Assembly: GCA_903945375.1 (NCBI GenBank) | Contig: CAJAVP010000116.1 | Coordinates: 1 to 50,615, forward strand | DNA length: 50,615 bases | Direction: 5' to 3' | Origin: an uncultured Methylococcaceae bacterium | Lineage (GTDB): Bacteria > Pseudomonadota > Gammaproteobacteria > Methylococcales > Methylomonadaceae | Shown here: positions 702 to 45,916 of the stretch, piece after piece | How the letters are laid out: the number at the start of each line of letters is the position of its first letter | Numbering within the stretch: position 1 is the first letter of the stretch | Made by a program: the position numbers and the translations under genes | The notes under the pieces: generated by a model | Told to the model about the DNA's origin: nothing | The model's database searches: none | Seen by the model: the letters and a program-made list of their open reading frames with translations, nothing else

Positions 702-2444
702 TTAATAAACGTCTCTAACGTAACGTTTATCGCGTTTTAATTGATTGACATAATCAATGGCTTGCGCTTCTGATAACTGACCGTGGATAGCGATAACATC
801 TAACAGGGCTTTATCGACATCTTTTGCCATGCGATAGGCATCTCCGCAGACAAAAAAGTAACCGCCTTGTTCTAACCAATCGAAAAGTTCAGCACCGTGT
901 TCGCGCATTTTATCTTGTACATAGATTTTTTCTTCTTGATCTCTGGAGAATGCCAAGTCTAGGCGAGTTAATACGCCGTTGTCTTGGAGTGCTGCCAATT
1001 CTTCCTGGTAAATAAAATCCGTTGACGCATTGCGGTCACCAAAAAAGAGCCAGTTTTTGCCGGTTGCTTGGCGATATTGGCGCTCTTGTAAGAAGGCGCG
1101 AAACGGTGCAATGCCGGTTCCAGGCCCCACCATAATCATCGGTAGCGTGTTATCTTCAGGCACTCTAAATAACTTGTTGGGAATAAAGAAGCAGTTGACC
1201 TCGGTGTCGGCCTCCACTAAATCAGCCAAAAAGGTTGAGCAAACACCTTTGTGTTGTCGTCCATGTGCGTCATAACGAACGCTAGCTACGGTCAAATGAA
1301 CGTGCTCAGGATTGGGTTTGCTGCTGGAGGAAATCGAATACGCACGATGTTGCAAGGGCTTTAACAGCGCGATAAATTCTGCGGCTGAAAATTCAACATT
1401 GGGATTTTGCAATAATAAGTCTAAGGTGTCGCGTCCCCATAAATACTGACTGAGCGCTTCTTTGTCATTGGCTTGTAAGTGTGCATTCAATGTTTGGTTG
1501 CCAGAGCGTTTGGCAAGTTCTTCCAAAAATTCTTTGCTGGGTAGTTTGATTTCAAAATATTTCAGCAAGGCCTCACGTAAGCACATCAATTCGCCATTGA
1601 CTGGCTCTTCTTCTGCGCCACTGCAATGAATGGCGTTGAGCAGCTCATCGACTAATTTCGGGCAATTACGAGCAAAAATGCCTAAGGCATCACCCGCTTC
1701 GTAGTGTAGTCCTGAGCCTGCAATAGAGATTTCGTAATGGCGCGTTTCTTTGGATGATTCCGGCGCAGTAAGCAGTCGATTAACCAGAAGTTTGGCTGGA
1801 AAAGGATTTTTTCGAGTGTATTGTGGTTTATCGTCATTGATCGCTAAGGTATCAACAATGCTGGCGGTGGATGCACCACCTGATATTTGTGGAATAACCG
1901 TGCTAATCCAGGCTTTGGCGGGTTCTTCAAACGCGACATCCGCATCGATGCGATCGTATAAGCGCATTGCTCCTAAGGCGGTCAGTCGGTTATCCCAATC
2001 AATACCTGCTTGGCAAAATAAATCGTAGCTGGTGTCGCCTAATGCAAATACGGCGTAGTGCAGATTGGGCAGTTTAGGCGCTGAGTCTGCACTCATTTCT
2101 TCCCAGAGTAATTGGGCATTATCTGGCATTTCGCCTTCGCCATAGGTGCTGGTGATAATCAGTAGGTATTCCATCGTGCTCAGTGCATCCGCTGATAGCT
2201 CATCCATGCTCTTGACGATGGGTTTTAAGCCGTGCGCTTTGGCAACCGTCGCCGCATCATTGGCGACGGATTCCGCATTGCCGGTTTGACTACCGTATAA
2301 AATGTTAAGTGTACGGCTATCTGTTGCATTGATTGATCCGGCACTTTGAATCATGTGGGTGTGCATACCGGCAAAAAAGCCGCTTAGCCATGCGCGTTGG
2401 CTTGCACTGTAAGGCGCATCTGCTGGAATTTGAGGTGTTTTCAT
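702..2444 (-). CDS. cysJ: CysJ-type diflavin reductase (sulfite reductase flavoprotein alpha-component family)
   Basis: The 580-residue protein has the CysJ plan and length (E. coli CysJ is 599). An N-terminal segment contains APYSASQRAWLSGFFAG. A flavodoxin-like FMN domain (about 46-190) begins ILYGSQTGNAES. The FAD domain carries the RAYSISSSS motif near residue 367. The NADPH domain has GPGTGIAPFRAF near 440, and the C-terminus is KRYVRDVY as in CysJ. The family moves electrons from NADPH through FAD and FMN to an acceptor, normally the CysI haemoprotein. No cysI is visible here. Instead the gene lies 80 bases downstream of the GltB-like gene on the same strand, probably as one transcript. 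Family assignment is firm; that its partner is CysI is not, and electron supply to the GltB-like protein is a plausible alternative. Confidence 0.88.
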   Translation of the reverse strand: MKTPQIPADAPYSASQRAWLSGFFAGMHTHMIQSAGSINATDSRTLNILYGSQTGNAESVANDAATVAKAHGLKPIVKSMDELSADALSTMEYLLIITSTYGEGEMPDNAQLLWEEMSADSAPKLPNLHYAVFALGDTSYDLFCQAGIDWDNRLTALGAMRLYDRIDADVAFEEPAKAWISTVIPQISGGASTASIVDTLAINDDKPQYTRKNPFPAKLLVNRLLTAPESSKETRHYEISIAGSGLHYEAGDALGIFARNCPKLVDELLNAIHCSGAEEEPVNGELMCLREALLKYFEIKLPSKEFLEELAKRSGNQTLNAHLQANDKEALSQYLWGRDTLDLLLQNPNVEFSAAEFIALLKPLQHRAYSISSSSKPNPEHVHLTVASVRYDAHGRQHKGVCSTFLADLVEADTEVNCFFIPNKLFRVPEDNTLPMIMVGPGTGIAPFRAFLQERQYRQATGKNWLFFGDRNASTDFIYQEELAALQDNGVLTRLDLAFSRDQEEKIYVQDKMREHGAELFDWLEQGGYFFVCGDAYRMAKDVDKALLDVIAIHGQLSEAQAIDYVNQLKRDKRYVRDVY

Positions 2445-2489
2445 TTAAGTCACTGGTTGCGATTTAGGTCTGGATTCTGTAAGAAGCGT

Positions 2490-2515
2490 CCTATACCAAC
2501 CAAAGTCGGTATAGG
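2490..2515 (-). other. Stem-loop between the gltB-like and cysJ-like genes
   Basis: Eight-base perfect arms (CCTATACC and GGTATAGG) flank a ten-base loop in the 80-base gap between the two genes. No T-run follows on the minus strand, so it is not a standard terminator. It could slow polymerase or protect the upstream message and so set the ratio of the two products; that role is inferred. Confidence 0.4.
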
Positions 2516-2524
2516 TTATGACGT

Positions 2525-5500
2525 TTATGCGGCCTGACCGCTGAGCATCGTTTGGACAATGCCTAAACCCACCAGACCGGCCAAATATTCTTCAACAGCC
2601 GGAATACCGGCTAATGCTTGTTTATTGATGTTGTCTTGCTCAATAATCCAATGCGTTGAGCCTATGGAATAAATGCTTTGTACTGAGCGGTTAATCAAGG
2701 CGGTTTTATAGTCATTGAGCCGTTTGCTGGCTAACAACCAAGCCAATTGTTCATCCGCGTAGTTACTGTAGGCCTCGCGAGTGGTTTTTACCAAGGCTTC
2801 TTGCAATTTGCGTGGACGCTCAGTGATGATTTTATGCGCGGCTAATTCGATATGGTGTTGAGTGCGCTGTGCTTCAGGTGCAAATTTTAAGCTATCGAGA
2901 GCAACTTGCTGCGCTTTATCGAGTACGGCAAAACTGTTTATCAATTTAAACGTTAAGGCGTTATCGCTGGTTTCGCTAGGGATTAAACCAGCAAACAATG
3001 GCGTGGCGTGCAGATAGGCGTGTTTAACTTGTTCAATCTGCTGCCGAGCCAGTTCGAGTGATAATTCCTCAATCATGGCTTTACGGTCTAAGGCTTGTTG
3101 CAAATAGTGTGCGGTTTGGGTTTTGTACAACCACAGCGGCAGGGCAAATTTAAAATGCTGGCGCTCGCTTTCCCAGTTATTCAGTAGATTTCTCGCTTTG
3201 CTGGAATTGGCGTATTCGGCATGTTGTTCTAGCATCGCTAAAATGAATTGCTCATGCGCTTTTGCCATCTCAGTGTCTTCCGTTAGGCTATGCAATTCTA
3301 CGGAAGTTTTGTCATACAGTTTTTCCAAACGATGGTCAGGATCATACTGATAAGCGTTGCCGCCGGACATGCCATTGCAGAACCCTTTGCCGAAGCCGCC
3401 GATATTGAGTACCGCGCCATTGGTCATGTATTCGCAAGCGAAATCACCAACACCTTCAACAACCGCCATTGCACCTGAGTTTCTGACTGCAAAGCGATCG
3501 CCTGCTTCTCCATTGATAAAGGCTTTACCGCCGGTTGCGCCAAACAAGGCGAAGTTACCGATTAGGACATTATTGCCCGGGGTTTTAATGCCGCCACCGG
3601 GCGATTCAACCACAATCACACCGCCACAAGCTGACTTGCCCACGCCATCATTACACGTACCCAAATGCTCCATACGCATTCCGTCATTAAGGAAAGCGGC
3701 ATAGCTTTGTCCTGCCGAGCCGTGGGTGCGGATGATGACGCTATCAGGTGCCAAATACCGACGGCCGTTTTGATGGGTGTAGATAATTTTTGAGTTAGCG
3801 ACTTCTTGTTCACTCAGTTCATACGCTAACAGTCGTTCAATATCGATTGCGGCTTGACCACCAACGGTTTTATTGCAGTTGTTAAGTTTAAAGTCGCTGC
3901 CTTCAATAATCAGTTGCGTGGCTTGTGTCGGAATAAGCTCTGCTTTGACGCGCTCAATGATGGTGTTATCAATCGCAAAATTGGCTTCTAAGTAAACCGG
4001 TTTGGCGACGGTAATGACATCAACTTGATTGAGCATTTTGCATAAATTGACTTGTCCAATCAGGCTTGGATGATTGATTAAATGCAATAAATCCGTTTGG
4101 CCGCGTATTTCTCGTAAGCTGGTGTAGCCTAATTGTGCCAATATTTCTCTGACCTCATGCGCCAAGTTCATAAAGTATTGCGCGAGAATGCGAGCATCAC
4201 CTTTAAATTCTTCATGCGCGGTGGTTAAACCGGCTGGACATTTAATATTGCAGTTTTTTGCCATGACGCAACGCAGCATCATTAAGGCCGAGGTGCCAAA
4301 TTCAAATGAGTCCGCGCCGAGAATGGCCGATTTAACGACATCCACACCGCTTTGATGTGCGCCACTGCAACGTAAAATCACTTTATTACGCAAGCCATTG
4401 ACGGCTAAAGCCTGATGGACTTCAGCAATGCCAATTTCGGGCGAACGACCGCTGTTTTTCAGGCTAGTTACAGCGGCTGCACCGGTACCGCCCGTGTTGC
4501 CTGCAACGTTGATAACATCTGCGCCGGCTTTGGCAACGCCCACGGCAATGGTGCCGATACCTTCTGAGGAGACTAATTTAACGCCGACTTTAATACGAGC
4601 AGCTTTGGCATCATGGATGAGTTGACCTAAATCTTCAATCGAGTATGTGTCATGATGTGGTGGCGGGCTGACTAACTCAACTTGTGGTGTTCCACCGCGT
4701 AAAGAGGCAATTTCGACTGAGACTTTAGCGGCGGGCAATTGTCCGCCTTCGCCTGGTTTTGCACCTTGGGCTATTTTAATTTCGATTTCGCTGATATTGG
4801 GATCAGCCAAATACCCCGCCCAAACACCAAAACGTCCAGACGCAAATTGTTTGATTCTGCAAGAGCGCAGGCTATTAAAGCGGCTAGGGTGTTCGCCGCC
4901 TTCACCGGAATTACTGAGTGCGCCGACGATATTTGTGCCCAATGCGACCGCTTCATGCGCTTCAGCTAATAACGCTCCATGACTCATAGCACCTGAGGCT
5001 AAGGTCGGGGTGATTTCATGAGCGGGTTGCACTTGACTTAACGTAATAGGTTCGCGGGCTGTTTTTAAGCTGTCCAGATAAGAGGCTAGCAAGCTGTCTA
5101 CGCTATCCAGTGTTATCGTCAGATGTGGCTCGTCAATGTTTAGATCAACGATTTGGTTTTGAAAACGAGTTTTAAAATGAGTGCCTAACGCTTCTAATCG
5201 CAAACGGTTTGGGTTTTGAGTCAAACAGAGCTGATAAATTGTCGCGCCGATTTTGTTGACCGCCAAACCACGAACCAAGTAGTTTAGATTGCCGTGCAGA
5301 TTTTGTTTGCCCAAGCTGTGATCAAAATCCTCGCAACTTGAAGCATTTGTGACATCTACCGGAAAATCCATAATGTCGCGTAATGCAGCAGGGCGACAAT
5401 CACGCTCGAGATATAGATTTTTGGCAAAACTGCGATAAGCGGGTGTAATGCCGAATTGGTCAATTTGTTCATCGGTGCGTTTTTCATAACCGAGATCAAT

Positions 5501-8014
5501 ATAGGCGGTATCGCTGGCAACTGGCGTTTGCTCGGGAAGGTATGAAATCGCTTCGTCGGTCATATGGATATATTCCCGGACAGCTGTATTTCCGTATGAA
5601 TGACCGGCCCCCTCTTGACGCTCTTTAAACAATCCTAAGAACGGAATATCTTTTTCTTCGCGTACGGCTAAGGCTTTAAGATGCCATTCGGTTGCGCTGG
5701 CGGCAATATCGGCAAACCGCACTCCGCCCACAGACGCATGGATGTTGGGGAAGTAAGCCGTTAGTTTTGGCTCGTCGGTATCGAGATAATTGGACTCGAA
5801 AAATTCGCCACCGATATAGCTTTCAACGGTACATAAACCAAATTTACCCATTGTTTTCATGAGAGATTTTTCGGTTCCTTTTTGAAATTTCTCAAGAATT
5901 TTTTGCTGCTCATCAGCGGCATAATGACTGACGACGCGGTTGTGAACACTAATTGGGCAAATGGCAGATGCGCCAAAGCCTAATAAGGTGGCAATATCAT
6001 GTGGGCTGGCGGCTTGTCCGGTTTCAGCAATCAATGAGGAGTTAAAACGCAGTCCTTGTTTAACCAGTTGTTGGTTAGCGGCTGCAATCATTAATAAGGC
6101 TGGAATAGCGGCTTGATCGGGACAGATACCGGTGTCGCTGAGAATGATAATGCCGGTGTTGTTTCTGGCCGCTTGGACGACTTGCTCGCAGATTGCCATC
6201 AAGGATTGCTCGAGATTACGCTCGTTTTGTTCGGCATCCTGACTGTTCGGCGTGTACAGCATAGCTAAGGTTTTGGTGCTGACTGCGGTTTGTTGGCGAA
6301 TTTGTGCTAGTTGTGTGCGTTGCAAAATGGGCGATTCGATCATCAGCTGTTGATTGCTGTCATCGGAAAAATTGGGTTTAGCGCCTAATGCAACACGCAA
6401 GGTCATCCCATCACTCTCGCGGATGGAATCTAGCGGCGGATTGGTAACTTGAGCAAAGCGCTGGCTAAAATAGCGTGACATGCCACCTTCCGCGCTGGAT
6501 AACGCATTCGGTGCAATACCGTAGCCCATTGCCGAGACTTTTTCCATGCCTGTGGCAAGAATGGGATCGAGCAAAAACTTGAAGCTTTCTTGATTGAGCG
6601 AATAGGCGGTATGTTGCTGGTCAATATTGAAAGCCGATTGAGTGCGGTCGATTGACTCCAATTCCGCTAAACTGATTTTAGGCAGTTCAGCAAGGTGAAT
6701 ACAGCGTTGCGCCAATAAGGCTTGATAATCTTTTTCTTGGGCTAAGCGTTCCATGACTTGATGGCTGTTGTACGCTTCGCCGGTACGATGGTCGAAATAA
6801 AGCATTCCGCCCGCTTCGATACGTCCGCGTTTTAAGATGTCTTTGGGCGGAAAGTCAATTTGTCCCGCTTCAGACATAACCGCCAGATATTCGCCCGTTT
6901 CAACGGAACGCAAAGGACGTAAACCTAATCGATCAAGACGTGCACCAACGCAGAGACCGTCGAAGAAAATCAACGCGGCAGGGCCGTCATTTTTTTCTTC
7001 ATAAAGGCTAAAGTATTCCAACATGGCACGGACTTCTGGCGACAAAGTGGTATCGTTTTCCCAAGCGGGTGGCATCATTGCCAAAACCGCAGTGACGATA
7101 TCCATGTGATCTTCGTTGATGCGACGTGACAGGGTTTGATCTAGGCGACCTGAATCTGATTGTCCGCAGGGAAAAATAATATGTTTATTATTTTGGCGAG
7201 CAATCGCGCTTTCACTCAGGCGATTCTTCTTATCAGTATTGAGTTCGCCATTATGCGCCATGTAACGGAAGGGCTGAGCCATGATGGTGGCAGGTGCCGT
7301 GTTTGTTGAAAAGCGCGTATGGAAGAATAAGGTGCTGATTTCATGGTCAACATCATATAGGTCTTTGAAGTAGGGAATGACCTCAAAGGAATTAAGGCGA
7401 CCTTTGTACACTTGCGTGCGTGAGCTCATGGATAAAGGATAAAAACCATCCAGCTCATGGCGCGTAAAGCCTTCAACTTCAATTGATAATAAAACCTGTT
7501 GAATGTATTTTTCAAATTCATCATGCGAGGCATTTTTGAGCGAGTCGGGACGCGCAAACACACATTGCTTGATGGGAAATTGAGCTTTTACCGAAGCGGC
7601 ATTCAAAAAAGCGTTATCAACCGGCACCGCTCGCCAAATGAGAATAGGCAACGCTGCATTTTTGAAATGTCGCTCAACCAATTCTTGTGCCGCGCTATCG
7701 TAGTGATCGTGGTCTTCTGGAAAAAAGAAATTGGCGACTCCAAACTGTCCTAGTTCAAGCGTAGGCATGTTGGTGATTTTGCGAAAGAACTTAAGGGATA
7801 AATCAATATTAACGCCAGCGCCATCACCAATGCCTTCGGCACTCATGCCGCCACGATGCGGAATAGTGCATAAGGCTTCATGGGATTTAAGCAAAAGATC
7901 ATGCGTTTGCTTGCTTTGTTTGTGCGTTATAAAGCCTACGCCGCAGCTATCTTGAGAGAGTTCTGCGTTATAAAGCAGGGTATTTTGATTTTCTAATCGG
8001 GAATTTTTATTCAT
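2525..8014 (-). CDS. gltB: Large GltB-type glutamate synthase with extra segments
   Basis: This 1829-residue protein has the GltB order. An Ntn glutaminase domain starts at Cys24 (CGVGFITHK), implying removal of a 23-residue propeptide. A central domain follows, then the FMN synthase domain (PGEGGQLPAAKVS, AGNTGGTGAAAVTSLKNS) and a GXGXG beta-helix (GGFGKGFCNGMSGGNAY). GltB makes two glutamates from glutamine and 2-oxoglutarate. It is about 340 residues longer than E. coli GltB: roughly 100 lie before the FMN domain and nearly 200 form a mostly helical C-terminal extension. Near residue 1251 the cluster cysteines read CVMAKNCNIKC, spacing C-x5-C-x3-C, against C-x5-C-x4-C in the classical enzyme. 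No gltD follows; a CysJ-type reductase does. It is probably a distinct GltB subfamily; glutamate synthase activity is likely, electron donor uncertain. Confidence 0.85.
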   Translation of the reverse strand: MNKNSRLENQNTLLYNAELSQDSCGVGFITHKQSKQTHDLLLKSHEALCTIPHRGGMSAEGIGDGAGVNIDLSLKFFRKITNMPTLELGQFGVANFFFPEDHDHYDSAAQELVERHFKNAALPILIWRAVPVDNAFLNAASVKAQFPIKQCVFARPDSLKNASHDEFEKYIQQVLLSIEVEGFTRHELDGFYPLSMSSRTQVYKGRLNSFEVIPYFKDLYDVDHEISTLFFHTRFSTNTAPATIMAQPFRYMAHNGELNTDKKNRLSESAIARQNNKHIIFPCGQSDSGRLDQTLSRRINEDHMDIVTAVLAMMPPAWENDTTLSPEVRAMLEYFSLYEEKNDGPAALIFFDGLCVGARLDRLGLRPLRSVETGEYLAVMSEAGQIDFPPKDILKRGRIEAGGMLYFDHRTGEAYNSHQVMERLAQEKDYQALLAQRCIHLAELPKISLAELESIDRTQSAFNIDQQHTAYSLNQESFKFLLDPILATGMEKVSAMGYGIAPNALSSAEGGMSRYFSQRFAQVTNPPLDSIRESDGMTLRVALGAKPNFSDDSNQQLMIESPILQRTQLAQIRQQTAVSTKTLAMLYTPNSQDAEQNERNLEQSLMAICEQVVQAARNNTGIIILSDTGICPDQAAIPALLMIAAANQQLVKQGLRFNSSLIAETGQAASPHDIATLLGFGASAICPISVHNRVVSHYAADEQQKILEKFQKGTEKSLMKTMGKFGLCTVESYIGGEFFESNYLDTDEPKLTAYFPNIHASVGGVRFADIAASATEWHLKALAVREEKDIPFLGLFKERQEGAGHSYGNTAVREYIHMTDEAISYLPEQTPVASDTAYIDLGYEKRTDEQIDQFGITPAYRSFAKNLYLERDCRPAALRDIMDFPVDVTNASSCEDFDHSLGKQNLHGNLNYLVRGLAVNKIGATIYQLCLTQNPNRLRLEALGTHFKTRFQNQIVDLNIDEPHLTITLDSVDSLLASYLDSLKTAREPITLSQVQPAHEITPTLASGAMSHGALLAEAHEAVALGTNIVGALSNSGEGGEHPSRFNSLRSCRIKQFASGRFGVWAGYLADPNISEIEIKIAQGAKPGEGGQLPAAKVSVEIASLRGGTPQVELVSPPPHHDTYSIEDLGQLIHDAKAARIKVGVKLVSSEGIGTIAVGVAKAGADVINVAGNTGGTGAAAVTSLKNSGRSPEIGIAEVHQALAVNGLRNKVILRCSGAHQSGVDVVKSAILGADSFEFGTSALMMLRCVMAKNCNIKCPAGLTTAHEEFKGDARILAQYFMNLAHEVREILAQLGYTSLREIRGQTDLLHLINHPSLIGQVNLCKMLNQVDVITVAKPVYLEANFAIDNTIIERVKAELIPTQATQLIIEGSDFKLNNCNKTVGGQAAIDIERLLAYELSEQEVANSKIIYTHQNGRRYLAPDSVIIRTHGSAGQSYAAFLNDGMRMEHLGTCNDGVGKSACGGVIVVESPGGGIKTPGNNVLIGNFALFGATGGKAFINGEAGDRFAVRNSGAMAVVEGVGDFACEYMTNGAVLNIGGFGKGFCNGMSGGNAYQYDPDHRLEKLYDKTSVELHSLTEDTEMAKAHEQFILAMLEQHAEYANSSKARNLLNNWESERQHFKFALPLWLYKTQTAHYLQQALDRKAMIEELSLELARQQIEQVKHAYLHATPLFAGLIPSETSDNALTFKLINSFAVLDKAQQVALDSLKFAPEAQRTQHHIELAAHKIITERPRKLQEALVKTTREAYSNYADEQLAWLLASKRLNDYKTALINRSVQSIYSIGSTHWIIEQDNINKQALAGIPAVEEYLAGLVGLGIVQTMLSGQAA

Positions 8015-42595: not shown

Positions 42596-45500
42596 TCACT
42601 TTATTTCTTGCTCGCTCCTTAATTTTACCAGCACTTTGCTCAAGGCAATATAGGGTAATAAATGAGTCGGCACGCTGTTGTCGATGTCTTGGCGAATGAC
42701 TTGATAACGACGCAGTGCGGCGTGTTTAGTAGGCTGAGTCAGATAGGCCGTAGGGTTTATTGATGCCTCAGCGAGGCTGTTTTCAATAATGAGGCAAAGG
42801 GATTGTTTTAGCTCTTCTTGTATGATCGGGGCAAGATTTTGTTCCCAATGATCGTGGGCGTGGTATTGAGCTAGGTGCTCGATGAGCGTATCTAAACCAA
42901 GATAATGACGCGCTTCCTCATACCAATGAACAATGGTTTTAAATGCCGCTGCTGTGTGTTCTGCCAAATTCACCAGACGCGGAAAATCGCTTAGGCTTGT
43001 GGTGAGTGCAAGTTGCTCAGCCGATTCTTTGCTCAATCCTATTTGCTGATAATTCAGTGCTTGTTTTTGCCATACGGAATCCACTGTAAGTATCTCACGG
43101 TAAATGTTGAGGTAATAGTGATAACGTGCCAGCGTTGGTGGATTAGGTTGAAGGTGTTGACCCTCTGCTAACGCCCATTGGCAAAATTGTAGTAATACCG
43201 ATTCCAGTTGTATCAGTAGAGGGTACTGCACATTTGGGTCGGCTATCTGGGCAATGGCTTCACGCAATGACTGAGCGTTGATAATGTGCTCAAAACTCAG
43301 ATAACACGCTGCGAGTTCACTCCAATCTAAGCGATTCACTTCGTCTTGTTCCAGTTTTAGTGTTAAAAAACGGCAGCCAGCTTGGTTGATGATTCGGTTA
43401 CTGAGCTGCGTTGCGCGGATTTCATTGGCGAGTGGATGTGTTGTCAAATGAGCCAAAAATGTTGTCTTAATGGGTTCAGGGAAATAATCCGTTAGGCTCG
43501 TCTCTTCTTGCCAGCAAGGGGTGTTTTGTAATTGCTGGGTCAAATACATTTTACTGGCGGCCATGAGAATGGCTAATTCTGGACGGGTCAAAATTTGCCC
43601 AGGGCGTGCTAAAACGTCTTTATCGCTGGGAAATGACTCTTGTGCTTTATCAAGAAAATCATTGTCGTCTAAGAAAGCCGCCCATTGTAAAAAAGCTTTG
43701 GGTGTTTCTTGGCAACGCCGTTGTTCTAAGGATAAGCAAAGACTTTGTGCGGTGTTGTTTGCCAACACTAAAGCACATACTGGCTCGGTGATATGGGTGA
43801 ATAAGGTCTGGTAATCGTCAATGTGTTTCTGTTTTTGTAAGCCCATGAGTAAAATTTTCAAGTTGACTTCATGGTCAGAGGTGTCAACGCCCGCTGAATT
43901 ATCAACGGCATCGGTGTTAATGCGCCCGCCTTGCAAGGCGTATTCAATTCGGGCTTTTTGGGTAAAACCGAGATTGGCACCTTCCCCAACGACAGTGGCA
44001 TTTAGTTGTGTCGCATCAATTCGTACCTGATCATTATGGCGATCACCCACCTCTTCGTTTTTTTCGCTGCTGGCTTTAACGTAAGTGCCTATGCCCCCGA
44101 GCCAGAGCAAGTCAACTTTTGCCATGAGCAAATAACGAATCAGCGATTCGCCATCCAGCGATTTATAATGGATGCCCAGCCATTGTTTCAGTTCGACCGA
44201 TAAGGGAATATCTTTGTCTGAACGCAAATAAACACCACCGCCATTTGAAATCAGCCGACGGTCATAATCGTTCCAGCTTGAGCCAGATAATTCAAATAGG
44301 CGTTTACGTTCATTAAACGAGGCGTCAAGAGCAATAGGCTTTGGATCGAGAAAAATATGTTGTCCGCTGAATGCCGCTAATAACTGAATACAAGGCGACA
44401 GTAATAGGGCATTACCGAAGACATCGCCATCCATGCTACCAATACCTACGACACTAAAGGGTTCTTGTTGTATGTTTTTGCCCAATTCAAGAAAATGCCG
44501 CTTGACACATTCCCAAGCACCGCGAGCGGTAATACCTAAGGCTTTATGGTCATAACCATGAGAGCCACCACTGGCAAACGCATCGCCTAGCCAAAATTGA
44601 TAGTCGGCGGCGACAGCATTGGCGATGTCAGAAAATGATGCTGTGCCTTTGTCCGCTGCAACGACTAAGTAAGGATCGGGGTTGTCATAGGCTACGATGT
44701 GAGCCGCTTGAACAATGCGACCGTCTTGATAATTATCGGTTAAATCTAGCAAACCGCGTATTAAACGTAGATAGGCTTGTTGTCCTGCTGCCTTGAGCTT
44801 GGTTACTCCCTGTTGTTTAACAACAAATCCGCCTTTTGCTCCGGTGGGTATAATGAGTGCATTTTTGCTGACCTGAGTTTGCATCAGCCCTAAAATTTCG
44901 GTTCTAAAATCATCCGGGCGATCTGACCATCGAATGCCGCCGCGTGCTATTTTGCCGGCGCGTAAATGAATCCCTTGCACATCAACAGCATGGACATAAA
45001 TTTCGCTTCTAGGCTTAGGCGAGGGTAAGTCGATTACACCTAAGCTATTTATTTTAAAGGCGATAAAATAATCCGCATGGTCGCGTCGCCAGTGAAAATT
45101 GCTGCGTACTGTGGCATCAATCAGATTAAATAAAGTTCGCAAAATGCGGTCGTCGTTAAGCTCCGCCACGAGGCTCAGACTGTTTAATAACTGCCAGCGC
45201 AAAGGGGATAATAACTGTTCTTCTCGGCTTGAAATATCTTCCCCAGCCGGTATCGGTCTAAACCGCGCTTCAAAATAAGCAAATAAATCATGTGCAACCG
45301 TGTCGTTATGCACAAGGGCGCGATGAATGCTGGCTTTGCTGGTGTGTTGTTCCAGTTGCAAAAAATAATTGCGATAGGCTCGGAGTAAATCAATGTCCTG
45401 CCATGCCATACCCGCTAGGATACAAAGCTTGTTTAGGGCATCGTTGTCAACTCGATCTTCCATCACGGCGTGCAAGGTTGCTAATAAGCGCTGTTGTAAA

Positions 45501-45916
45501 TGCCTTAACGAGGGATGTTGCGTTTTTTCGGCTTTGATGCTGAAGCTTTTAATGAATTGCGTGGAATCTTCCTGTGAGAAACAAAATTGCATTTGATCCA
45601 TTACCCGCAAGCCTAGGTTTTCCAGTAGCGGGATGTACTCGTCCAAATAACGCGCTTGTCCACTGTAAAAGTGTAGGCGATAAGGGTCTTGCGGGCGTTT
45701 GGGTTTTATCAAGCTTACCGTTTGCTGATCAGCTTGTGTGATTTGCTCAAGATGTAGCAAATCTTGTAAGCCGTGGCGTGGTGCAAAACTGTTTTGATAG
45801 TCTGCACTAAAGAGATTGGCGTATTTTTGCAGCAGCCATTTTGCGTTGGCAGGCGTTAAGGCTTTTGCGGTTAGACGCTGTAACTGGGCTAACCAAGGGG
45901 ATATCGGCGTATTCAT
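42596..45916 (-). CDS. NAD-dependent glutamate dehydrogenase, short form
   Basis: The 1106-residue protein has the large NAD-GDH signature RGGIRWSDRPDDFRTEILGL and IIPTGAKGGFVVK (about 320-365), with the catalytic lysine region. DVFGNALLLSPCIQLLAAF and the nucleotide-binding SGSSWNDYD region are further on. It oxidises glutamate to 2-oxoglutarate and ammonia with NAD. The common bacterial 180-kDa form has about 1600 residues; this one lacks the roughly 500-residue N-terminal regulatory part and is near the 115-kDa size. Its ATG overlaps the stop of the upstream kinase gene (ATGA), so translation is coupled to a partner-switch module. Family is firm; the loss of the N-terminal domain is inferred from length. 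Confidence 0.88.
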   Translation of the reverse strand: MNTPISPWLAQLQRLTAKALTPANAKWLLQKYANLFSADYQNSFAPRHGLQDLLHLEQITQADQQTVSLIKPKRPQDPYRLHFYSGQARYLDEYIPLLENLGLRVMDQMQFCFSQEDSTQFIKSFSIKAEKTQHPSLRHLQQRLLATLHAVMEDRVDNDALNKLCILAGMAWQDIDLLRAYRNYFLQLEQHTSKASIHRALVHNDTVAHDLFAYFEARFRPIPAGEDISSREEQLLSPLRWQLLNSLSLVAELNDDRILRTLFNLIDATVRSNFHWRRDHADYFIAFKINSLGVIDLPSPKPRSEIYVHAVDVQGIHLRAGKIARGGIRWSDRPDDFRTEILGLMQTQVSKNALIIPTGAKGGFVVKQQGVTKLKAAGQQAYLRLIRGLLDLTDNYQDGRIVQAAHIVAYDNPDPYLVVAADKGTASFSDIANAVAADYQFWLGDAFASGGSHGYDHKALGITARGAWECVKRHFLELGKNIQQEPFSVVGIGSMDGDVFGNALLLSPCIQLLAAFSGQHIFLDPKPIALDASFNERKRLFELSGSSWNDYDRRLISNGGGVYLRSDKDIPLSVELKQWLGIHYKSLDGESLIRYLLMAKVDLLWLGGIGTYVKASSEKNEEVGDRHNDQVRIDATQLNATVVGEGANLGFTQKARIEYALQGGRINTDAVDNSAGVDTSDHEVNLKILLMGLQKQKHIDDYQTLFTHITEPVCALVLANNTAQSLCLSLEQRRCQETPKAFLQWAAFLDDNDFLDKAQESFPSDKDVLARPGQILTRPELAILMAASKMYLTQQLQNTPCWQEETSLTDYFPEPIKTTFLAHLTTHPLANEIRATQLSNRIINQAGCRFLTLKLEQDEVNRLDWSELAACYLSFEHIINAQSLREAIAQIADPNVQYPLLIQLESVLLQFCQWALAEGQHLQPNPPTLARYHYYLNIYREILTVDSVWQKQALNYQQIGLSKESAEQLALTTSLSDFPRLVNLAEHTAAAFKTIVHWYEEARHYLGLDTLIEHLAQYHAHDHWEQNLAPIIQEELKQSLCLIIENSLAEASINPTAYLTQPTKHAALRRYQVIRQDIDNSVPTHLLPYIALSKVLVKLRSEQEIK

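Follow-up and report, generated by a model that had tools for sequence, protein, structure and literature searches.

Bacterial GltB normally receives its electrons from GltD, and CysJ normally feeds the haemoprotein CysI. PMC8097209 lists GltD, ferredoxin and fused NADH as donor arrangements of glutamate synthase, and the ferredoxin-dependent enzyme is described there as one in which a one-electron donor docks from outside. Here, we describe a gene pair from an uncultured Methylococcaceae bacterium, presumably a type I methanotroph, in which a long GltB-like protein is followed by a CysJ-like diflavin reductase. The pair lies within the 50,615-nucleotide stretch of DNA that was analysed (the window). 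We consider it probable, at about 0.82, that the pair specifies a single NADPH-dependent glutamate synthase, with a CysJ-type diflavin reductase in place of GltD. Features of the window are as follows.

2525..8014, minus strand: long GltB-like protein, 1829 aa, homologue of the glutamate synthase large subunit (ORF, Pfam, NCBIfam)
6719..7945, minus strand: class-II glutamine amidotransferase domain, residues 24-432 (Pfam GATase_2)
7943-7945, minus strand: nucleophile Cys24 (invariant in the long-form alignment of 76 sequences)
5792..6616, minus strand: central domain, residues 467-741 (Pfam Glu_syn_central)
5066..5581, minus strand: insertion before the FMN domain, about residues 812-983, ~170 aa (comparison with ordinary GltBs)
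4124..5068, minus strand: FMN/synthase domain, residues 983-1297
4238..4270, minus strand: Fe-S cluster motif Cx5Cx3C, with C1249, C1255 and C1259 (alignments)
3269..3778, minus strand: GXGXG beta-helix domain, residues 1413-1582 (Pfam)
2528..3142, minus strand: C-terminal extension, about residues 1625-1829, all-helical (model and alignment)
2445..2524, minus strand: intergenic gap of 80 bases with a short inverted repeat and no T-run
702..2444, minus strand: CysJ-like NADPH-FAD-FMN diflavin reductase, 580 aa (ORF, Pfam, TIGR01931)
1908..2303, minus strand: flavodoxin-like FMN domain of the reductase, residues 48-179 (Pfam Flavodoxin_1)
1230..1817, minus strand: FAD domain of the reductase, residues 210-405 (Pfam FAD_binding_1)
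813..1133, minus strand: NADPH domain of the reductase, residues 438-544, with SRDQxxKxYVQ (Pfam NAD_binding_1)
42596-45916, minus strand: large NAD-glutamate dehydrogenase (Bac_GDH_CD, 711 bits), an alternative ammonium-glutamate link within the window

The long GltB-like protein has the domains and catalytic motifs of a glutamate synthase large subunit. Both open reading frames described in the initial annotation, an 1829-residue GltB and a CysJ-type reductase 80 bases downstream on the same strand, are present, and the larger one matches all four glutamate synthase domains in Pfam (GATase_2, Glu_syn_central, Glu_synthase and GXGXG). Its closest matches among sequences of solved structures are glutamate synthase large chains. 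The glutaminase Cys24, HNGE and the FMN-domain motifs GAKPGEGGQLP and SPPPHHD were invariant across 76 aligned long forms. On the NCBIfam model PRK11750 (cut-off 1047), the window protein scored 1068 bits, a relative (L085) 1038 and one of the family's ordinary GltBs 1771.

The same protein differs from ordinary GltBs in several places. Comparison with these confirmed the C-terminal extension and the insertion before the FMN domain that had been claimed for it, and also showed a smaller insertion near residues 1390-1410. Part of the pre-FMN insertion is a small alpha/beta unit in the predicted model; the window segment had no Pfam match, and its best PDB profile match reached only E 0.31. The model of residues 1609-1829, covering the C-terminal extension, had a pLDDT of 91.3 and a pTM of 0.84, and searches with the extension returned no convincing relatives (best PDB profile E 0.13, Foldseek E 0.79, Pfam E 0.07 [three members]). 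The cluster motif was Cx5Cx3C in all 76 aligned long forms, whereas ordinary GltB has Cx5Cx4C, one residue longer; that ordinary spacing is not found in the long form, though the three cysteines are kept.

The reductase resembles CysJ and is distinct from the CysJ proteins linked to CysI. It matches Flavodoxin_1, FAD_binding_1 and NAD_binding_1 in Pfam, its closest match among solved-structure sequences is CysJ, and it is 41% identical to E. coli CysJ. Core residues of the NADPH, FAD and FMN motifs, as well as the letters of SRDQxxKxYVQ, were invariant across 78 GltB-linked reductases. The window reductase scored 643 on the cysJ equivalog TIGR01931 (cut-off 668), and the three GltB-linked members that were scored all fell below the cut-off (643, 562 and 590), while E. 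coli CysJ (960) and the CysI-linked CysJ of L046 (775) passed it. In the reductase tree, the 78 GltB-linked sequences formed one clade against eight others (support 1.0), with CysI-linked CysJ outside. A signature stretch read RAYSISSS in 75 of the 78, compared with RLYSIASS in all eight others. Other CysJ-like reductases were longer: those of L050 (4428-6704) and L051 (3834-6044), of 736-758 aa, lie by genes reading as formylmethanofuran dehydrogenase subunits, and the one in L049 (1672-5988) sits in a 1438-aa frame. An apparent GltB-CysJ fusion in L148, suggested by a long frame, was rejected: in this GC-rich DNA we read the frame as merely remaining open ahead of a reductase gene of its own.

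The immediate surroundings of the pair were also inspected. A terminator-like site was looked for on the minus strand of the gap (2445-2524) and none was found; the inverted repeat there, CCTATACC...GGTATAGG, lacks a T-run. A FAD-monooxygenase gene, read as ubiH-type, adjoins the pair in the window, and a similar gene lies by ordinary gltBD in L040, L053 and L054.

Genome-wide searches support the absence of an ordinary GltD partner. The window genome (G000) is 3.59 Mb with a completeness of 100, and has one GltB above the Pfam cut-off plus one weak match under it. Searches of the whole genome with Fer4_20 and NIR_SIR gave zero matches inside the window, in agreement with the original statement that no gltD and no cysI lie nearby. 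An ordinary GltD, looked for genome-wide with Fer4_20, was not found; the sole match was a GltD-like/ferredoxin fusion on another contig. We rejected this 563-aa frame as a hidden GltD, as its neighbours look like genes for pyruvate formate-lyase and the corresponding activase. GltD-like/ferredoxin matches of this type occurred in 12 of 61 family genomes irrespective of GltB type (8 of 45 with the long form and 4 of 16 without), so 37 genomes with long GltB have no such protein. The one that was looked at, that of G000 (L003 1354-3033), is a GltD-like protein with a C-terminal ferredoxin-like part. The small GDH family was searched for in G000 and nothing was found. Given the large NAD-glutamate dehydrogenase, the GltB/CysJ-like pair need not be the sole glutamate route in this genome.

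Within the family, GltB type and putative electron donor changed together. We searched 61 family genomes, including G000, for long GltB, Fer4_20/GltD, CysJ-like protein and CysI. Long GltB was found in 45 (some in pieces), and a CysJ-like protein (at least 66% identity, some in pieces) in 45 of these 45 and in none of the 16 others. GltD was present in 20 of 20 genomes with ordinary GltB and in 0 of 41 others; for one of them, G023, the ordinary GltB was assigned from the genome table and its GltD. Forty genomes were counted as having only the long form, including six (G014, G021, G027, G031, G035 and G036) that each had one further GltB match of lower strength than the listed ones (in this search a full ordinary GltB typically produced two matches, mostly at ~1e-100 or better). 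Fifteen had only the ordinary form, five had both (G024, G025, G041, G051 and G057) and one had neither (G043, 76% complete). None of the 40 genomes counted as long-only had an ordinary GltD. A normal gltD elsewhere, which would have offered the long GltB its usual partner, is absent from G000 and from all 40 genomes counted as long-only. Fisher tests gave p 5e-15 for CysJ-like protein against long GltB and 0.46 for CysJ-like protein against CysI, although these values overstate independence because the 61 genomes are related. The swap is visible within a single genus (g3), where G021 has long GltB and a CysJ-like protein without GltD, and G048 has ordinary GltB and GltD without a CysJ-like protein. 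Arrangements varied: G041 interleaves both systems in a single cluster (long gltB, ordinary gltB, gltD, cysJ-like), two small ORFs separate long gltB from the cysJ-like gene in G027, and G053 retains the cysJ-like gene on another contig beside unrelated genes.

These counts bear on whether the CysJ-like protein instead serves sulfite reductase (CysI) and merely sits by gltB. Its resemblance to E. coli CysJ is in keeping with such a role, as is its position as the only full CysJ homologue in a genome where a CysI-like gene exists: G000 has a single CysI-like gene, on contig C104 away from the pair, and a search for a second full CysJ gave only a weak flavodoxin-region match. Yet CysI of the G000 type was found in 59 of 61 family genomes, 44 with and 15 without the CysJ-like protein, and in G021 the CysJ-like gene occurs but that CysI does not, so presence of one is independent of the other. 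The concern that sulfur genes might depend on this reductase only is therefore not borne out across the family. CysI-linked CysJs also form the separate clade noted above and adjoin their own CysI-like gene; G022, G029 and G049 carry the GltB-linked reductase together with a second CysJ of this kind (44% identity). With the equivalog cut-off failed by the window reductase and passed by E. coli CysJ and L046, we regard a sulfite reductase role as very unlikely.

That the two proteins cooperate on another substrate, with some other 2-oxo acid as acceptor or in a reductive amination of similar type, is improbable. The subfamily has its own substitutions in the FMN domain and the cluster loop; the long form has GNTGGTGA where ordinary GltB has GYDGGTGA, which leaves room for a changed substrate. 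Some carriers also retain ordinary gltBD alongside, for example Vibrio L104, L119 and L159. Against this, the long form was counted as the only full GltB in 40 of the 61 family genomes, and among those 40 only G047 strongly matched the small hexameric GDH family. The GAKPGEGGQLP, SPPPHHD and glutaminase motifs are, moreover, unchanged.

The association of the two genes extends well beyond the family. Full-length long GltB was found in 0 of 40 further relatives at the order level, and evenly drawn samples contained it in 4 of 369 class genomes and 6 of 398 phylum genomes at E 1e-200 or better. In all six sampled carriers outside the family (G248, G393, G520, G626, G806 and G823), a CysJ-like gene adjoins. 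A scan of 84,980 species for a motif region, with a GltB fragment and not the reductase as query, gave at least 523 relatives, of which the best 80 were used. These 80 include Rhizobiales, Rhodobacterales, Vibrio, Pseudoalteromonas, methanotrophs and Microbacterium, as well as MAGs called Verrucomicrobiales, Planctomycetaceae and Rhodococcus. Together with the six sampled carriers this gave 86 loci, 74 with a full-length protein (1772-1922 aa) and 12 non-full-length ones that were left out.

A CysJ-like gene was present in 72 of the 74 full-length loci and lay directly downstream on the same strand in 71, at a spacing of about -4 to 177 bases as estimated from BLAST alignments. The exceptions were L103 (reductase on another contig; this is G053), L127 (a 404-aa match only, 42%) and L149 (reductase on the opposite strand). 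Flanking genes differed between loci while the pair stayed constant, and we rejected chance adjacency on these grounds. A lack of conserved adjacency in relatives, which would have counted against the proposal, is thus not what was seen in these loci from several phyla. Nine records of a plasmid collection matched at least 80% of the long form, and in the four whose annotation was examined (Tsukamurella, Ketogulonicigenium, Neorhizobium and Shinella) the reductase follows long gltB, with a 4-base overlap of the genes in Tsukamurella. Their annotations read gltB or large subunit twice and otherwise "glutamate synthase-related protein", with the neighbour named as "sulfite reductase" alpha or flavoprotein subunit. 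In L104 and L119 (Vibrio) and in L081, ordinary gltB-gltD immediately precedes the long gltB-cysJ pair on the same strand, ~460 bases away.

Phylogenies of the two proteins were correlated, and each forms its own distinct clade in its tree. A mirror-tree comparison gave r 0.949, with a maximum of 0.22 in 999 permutations; we note that this correlation is not independent of adjacency, because neighbouring genes share history. For the GltB tree, four truncated long forms were removed from the "classic" set, and L153, which was left there, is a long form by position; an initial monophyly test was negative because truncated long forms had been sorted as classic. Some gammaproteobacterial members and two PVC MAGs fell inside alphaproteobacterial clades, with most nodes well supported and one at 0.15. 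This nesting suggests that the pair may have moved by transfer between lineages.

Gene presence, adjacency, co-occurrence, correlated trees and conserved catalytic motifs are directly established, and they support the initial annotation's interpretation of the CysJ-like protein as a likely donor for long GltB. From these we infer complex formation, the electron route and the identity of the substrate. Electrons from NADPH would pass through FAD to the flavodoxin-like FMN within the CysJ-like subunit. The flavodoxin-like domain would dock on long GltB, at a new docking site putatively formed by the insertion, the helical C-terminal domain and the shortened cluster loop, and its FMN would give single electrons to the GltB Fe-S cluster, in parallel with the feeding of ferredoxin-dependent glutamate synthase by ferredoxin. 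The cluster would then reduce the GltB FMN, which would reduce 2-iminoglutarate, made from 2-oxoglutarate and glutamine-derived ammonia, to glutamate. The low-potential FMN couple of CysJ lies near -330 mV. Set beside the cluster potential of about -280 mV stated for GltBD in PMC8097209, this makes the electron transfer feasible.

A role in iron sparing is a further, tentative reading. GltBD contains one 3Fe-4S and two 4Fe-4S clusters, or 11 Fe per protomer. Long GltB with a cluster-free CysJ-like partner would need 3 Fe, and at somewhat less than even odds the pair could be an iron-sparing glutamate synthase, expressed in iron limitation where GltBD is also kept. With the same reserve, Fur, IdeR/DtxR or a rhizobial iron regulator might control it, in some carriers from an operon shared with haem or siderophore genes, and some methanotrophs might, just as tentatively, have adopted the pair as their only glutamate synthase. 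In Caulobacter, gltBD is reported to be turned down under iron limitation, and this is called iron sparing in PMC3751524.

Features in subsets of the non-methanotroph carriers lend this reading partial support. Of 90 loci, 16 have a third gene, related to HemS/ChuX, behind cysJ (for example L168 14448-15257, L148 9501-10331 and L085 12960-13802); in a Pfam scan of 12 of these proteins, six were above the cut-off and six weaker. This gene may mark iron-linked operons, and in Ketogulonicigenium it leads into a co-directional run of AraC, TonB receptor, siderophore ABC and siderophore-interacting genes. As a minority feature, it was nonetheless counted against the iron-sparing reading. Outside the family, five of 22 gammaproteobacterial regions had Fur-like sites (shuffle p <=0.02), two of these five belonging to the same species; the figures were 2 of 46 for other regions and 0 of 50 for methanotroph regions, which include some duplicates. 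DtxR/IdeR-like sites were found in both actinobacterial regions tested (16/19 and 14/19 matches, 0/300 shuffles), and none of 68 other regions had one at p 0.01. Fourteen of 20 rhizobial regions had a TTGACT element no more than ~85 bases from the gene, seven of them with TGA-N9-TCA by eye. Among 125 flanking ORFs, a raw tally gave four TonB receptors and two FecCD permeases. There was no site enrichment over all 120 upstream regions, and no iron-regulator signal was found within the window's family.

Thirteen Rhizobiales loci (L097, L102, L105, L117, L135, L107, L109, L108, L156, L138, L147, L170 and L171) have a conserved AACTTGACT element ~47-82 bases before long gltB, single in each locus except L108, where it occurs twice. 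It is a candidate promoter or iron-regulator site.

The HemS-like gene could also be taken to mean that ferredoxin or flavodoxin supplies long GltB and that the CysJ-like protein has another client, such as this neighbour; diflavin reductases can feed haem oxygenases. The gene follows cysJ in the 16 loci above, but it was not found in the other 74, methanotrophs included, and the GltB-CysJ association is nearly universal. We therefore give this alternative only a slight chance, and prefer the CysJ-like protein as the predicted donor of long GltB.

Glutamate synthase is a main nitrogen entry point of cells, and the pair probably represents a fourth, widespread donor class of this enzyme, in which a flavodoxin-type diflavin protein serves methanotrophs, rhizobia, marine Rhodobacterales, vibrios and actinobacteria. 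Its recognition would mean corrections to metabolic models and to nitrogen and sulfur annotations, and would show a redox subunit exchanged together with the elements on which it likely docks; the four annotated records examined name two unrelated proteins. Should the iron reading be true, it would explain how ammonium assimilation could continue in some bacteria when iron-rich GltBD falls, as described for Caulobacter in PMC3751524, and nitrogen assimilation with less iron may be possible.

Compared with known systems, the predicted enzyme combines features of three. Like GltBD of Azospirillum and E. coli, long GltB has glutaminase, central, FMN/synthase and beta-helix domains with the same catalytic motifs, and NADPH is the predicted donor. 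Unlike in GltBD, the place of GltD (FAD and two 4Fe-4S clusters) would be taken by a CysJ-type FAD/FMN protein in which no Fe-S domain was found, and the large subunit has Cx5Cx3C rather than Cx5Cx4C, plus the insertion and the helical C-terminal domain. It shares FMN and one Fe-S cluster in the large subunit with the ferredoxin-dependent glutamate synthase of plants and cyanobacteria, but differs in having a dedicated NADPH diflavin reductase encoded adjacent to it and in forming its own clade with extra domains. The reductase, in turn, has the FMN-FAD-NADPH order and nucleotide-binding motifs of CysJ from assimilatory NADPH sulfite reductase. Unlike CysJ, it belongs to a separate clade under the cysJ equivalog cut-off, has a shorter N-terminus than E. 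coli CysJ, and is linked to GltB rather than to CysI.
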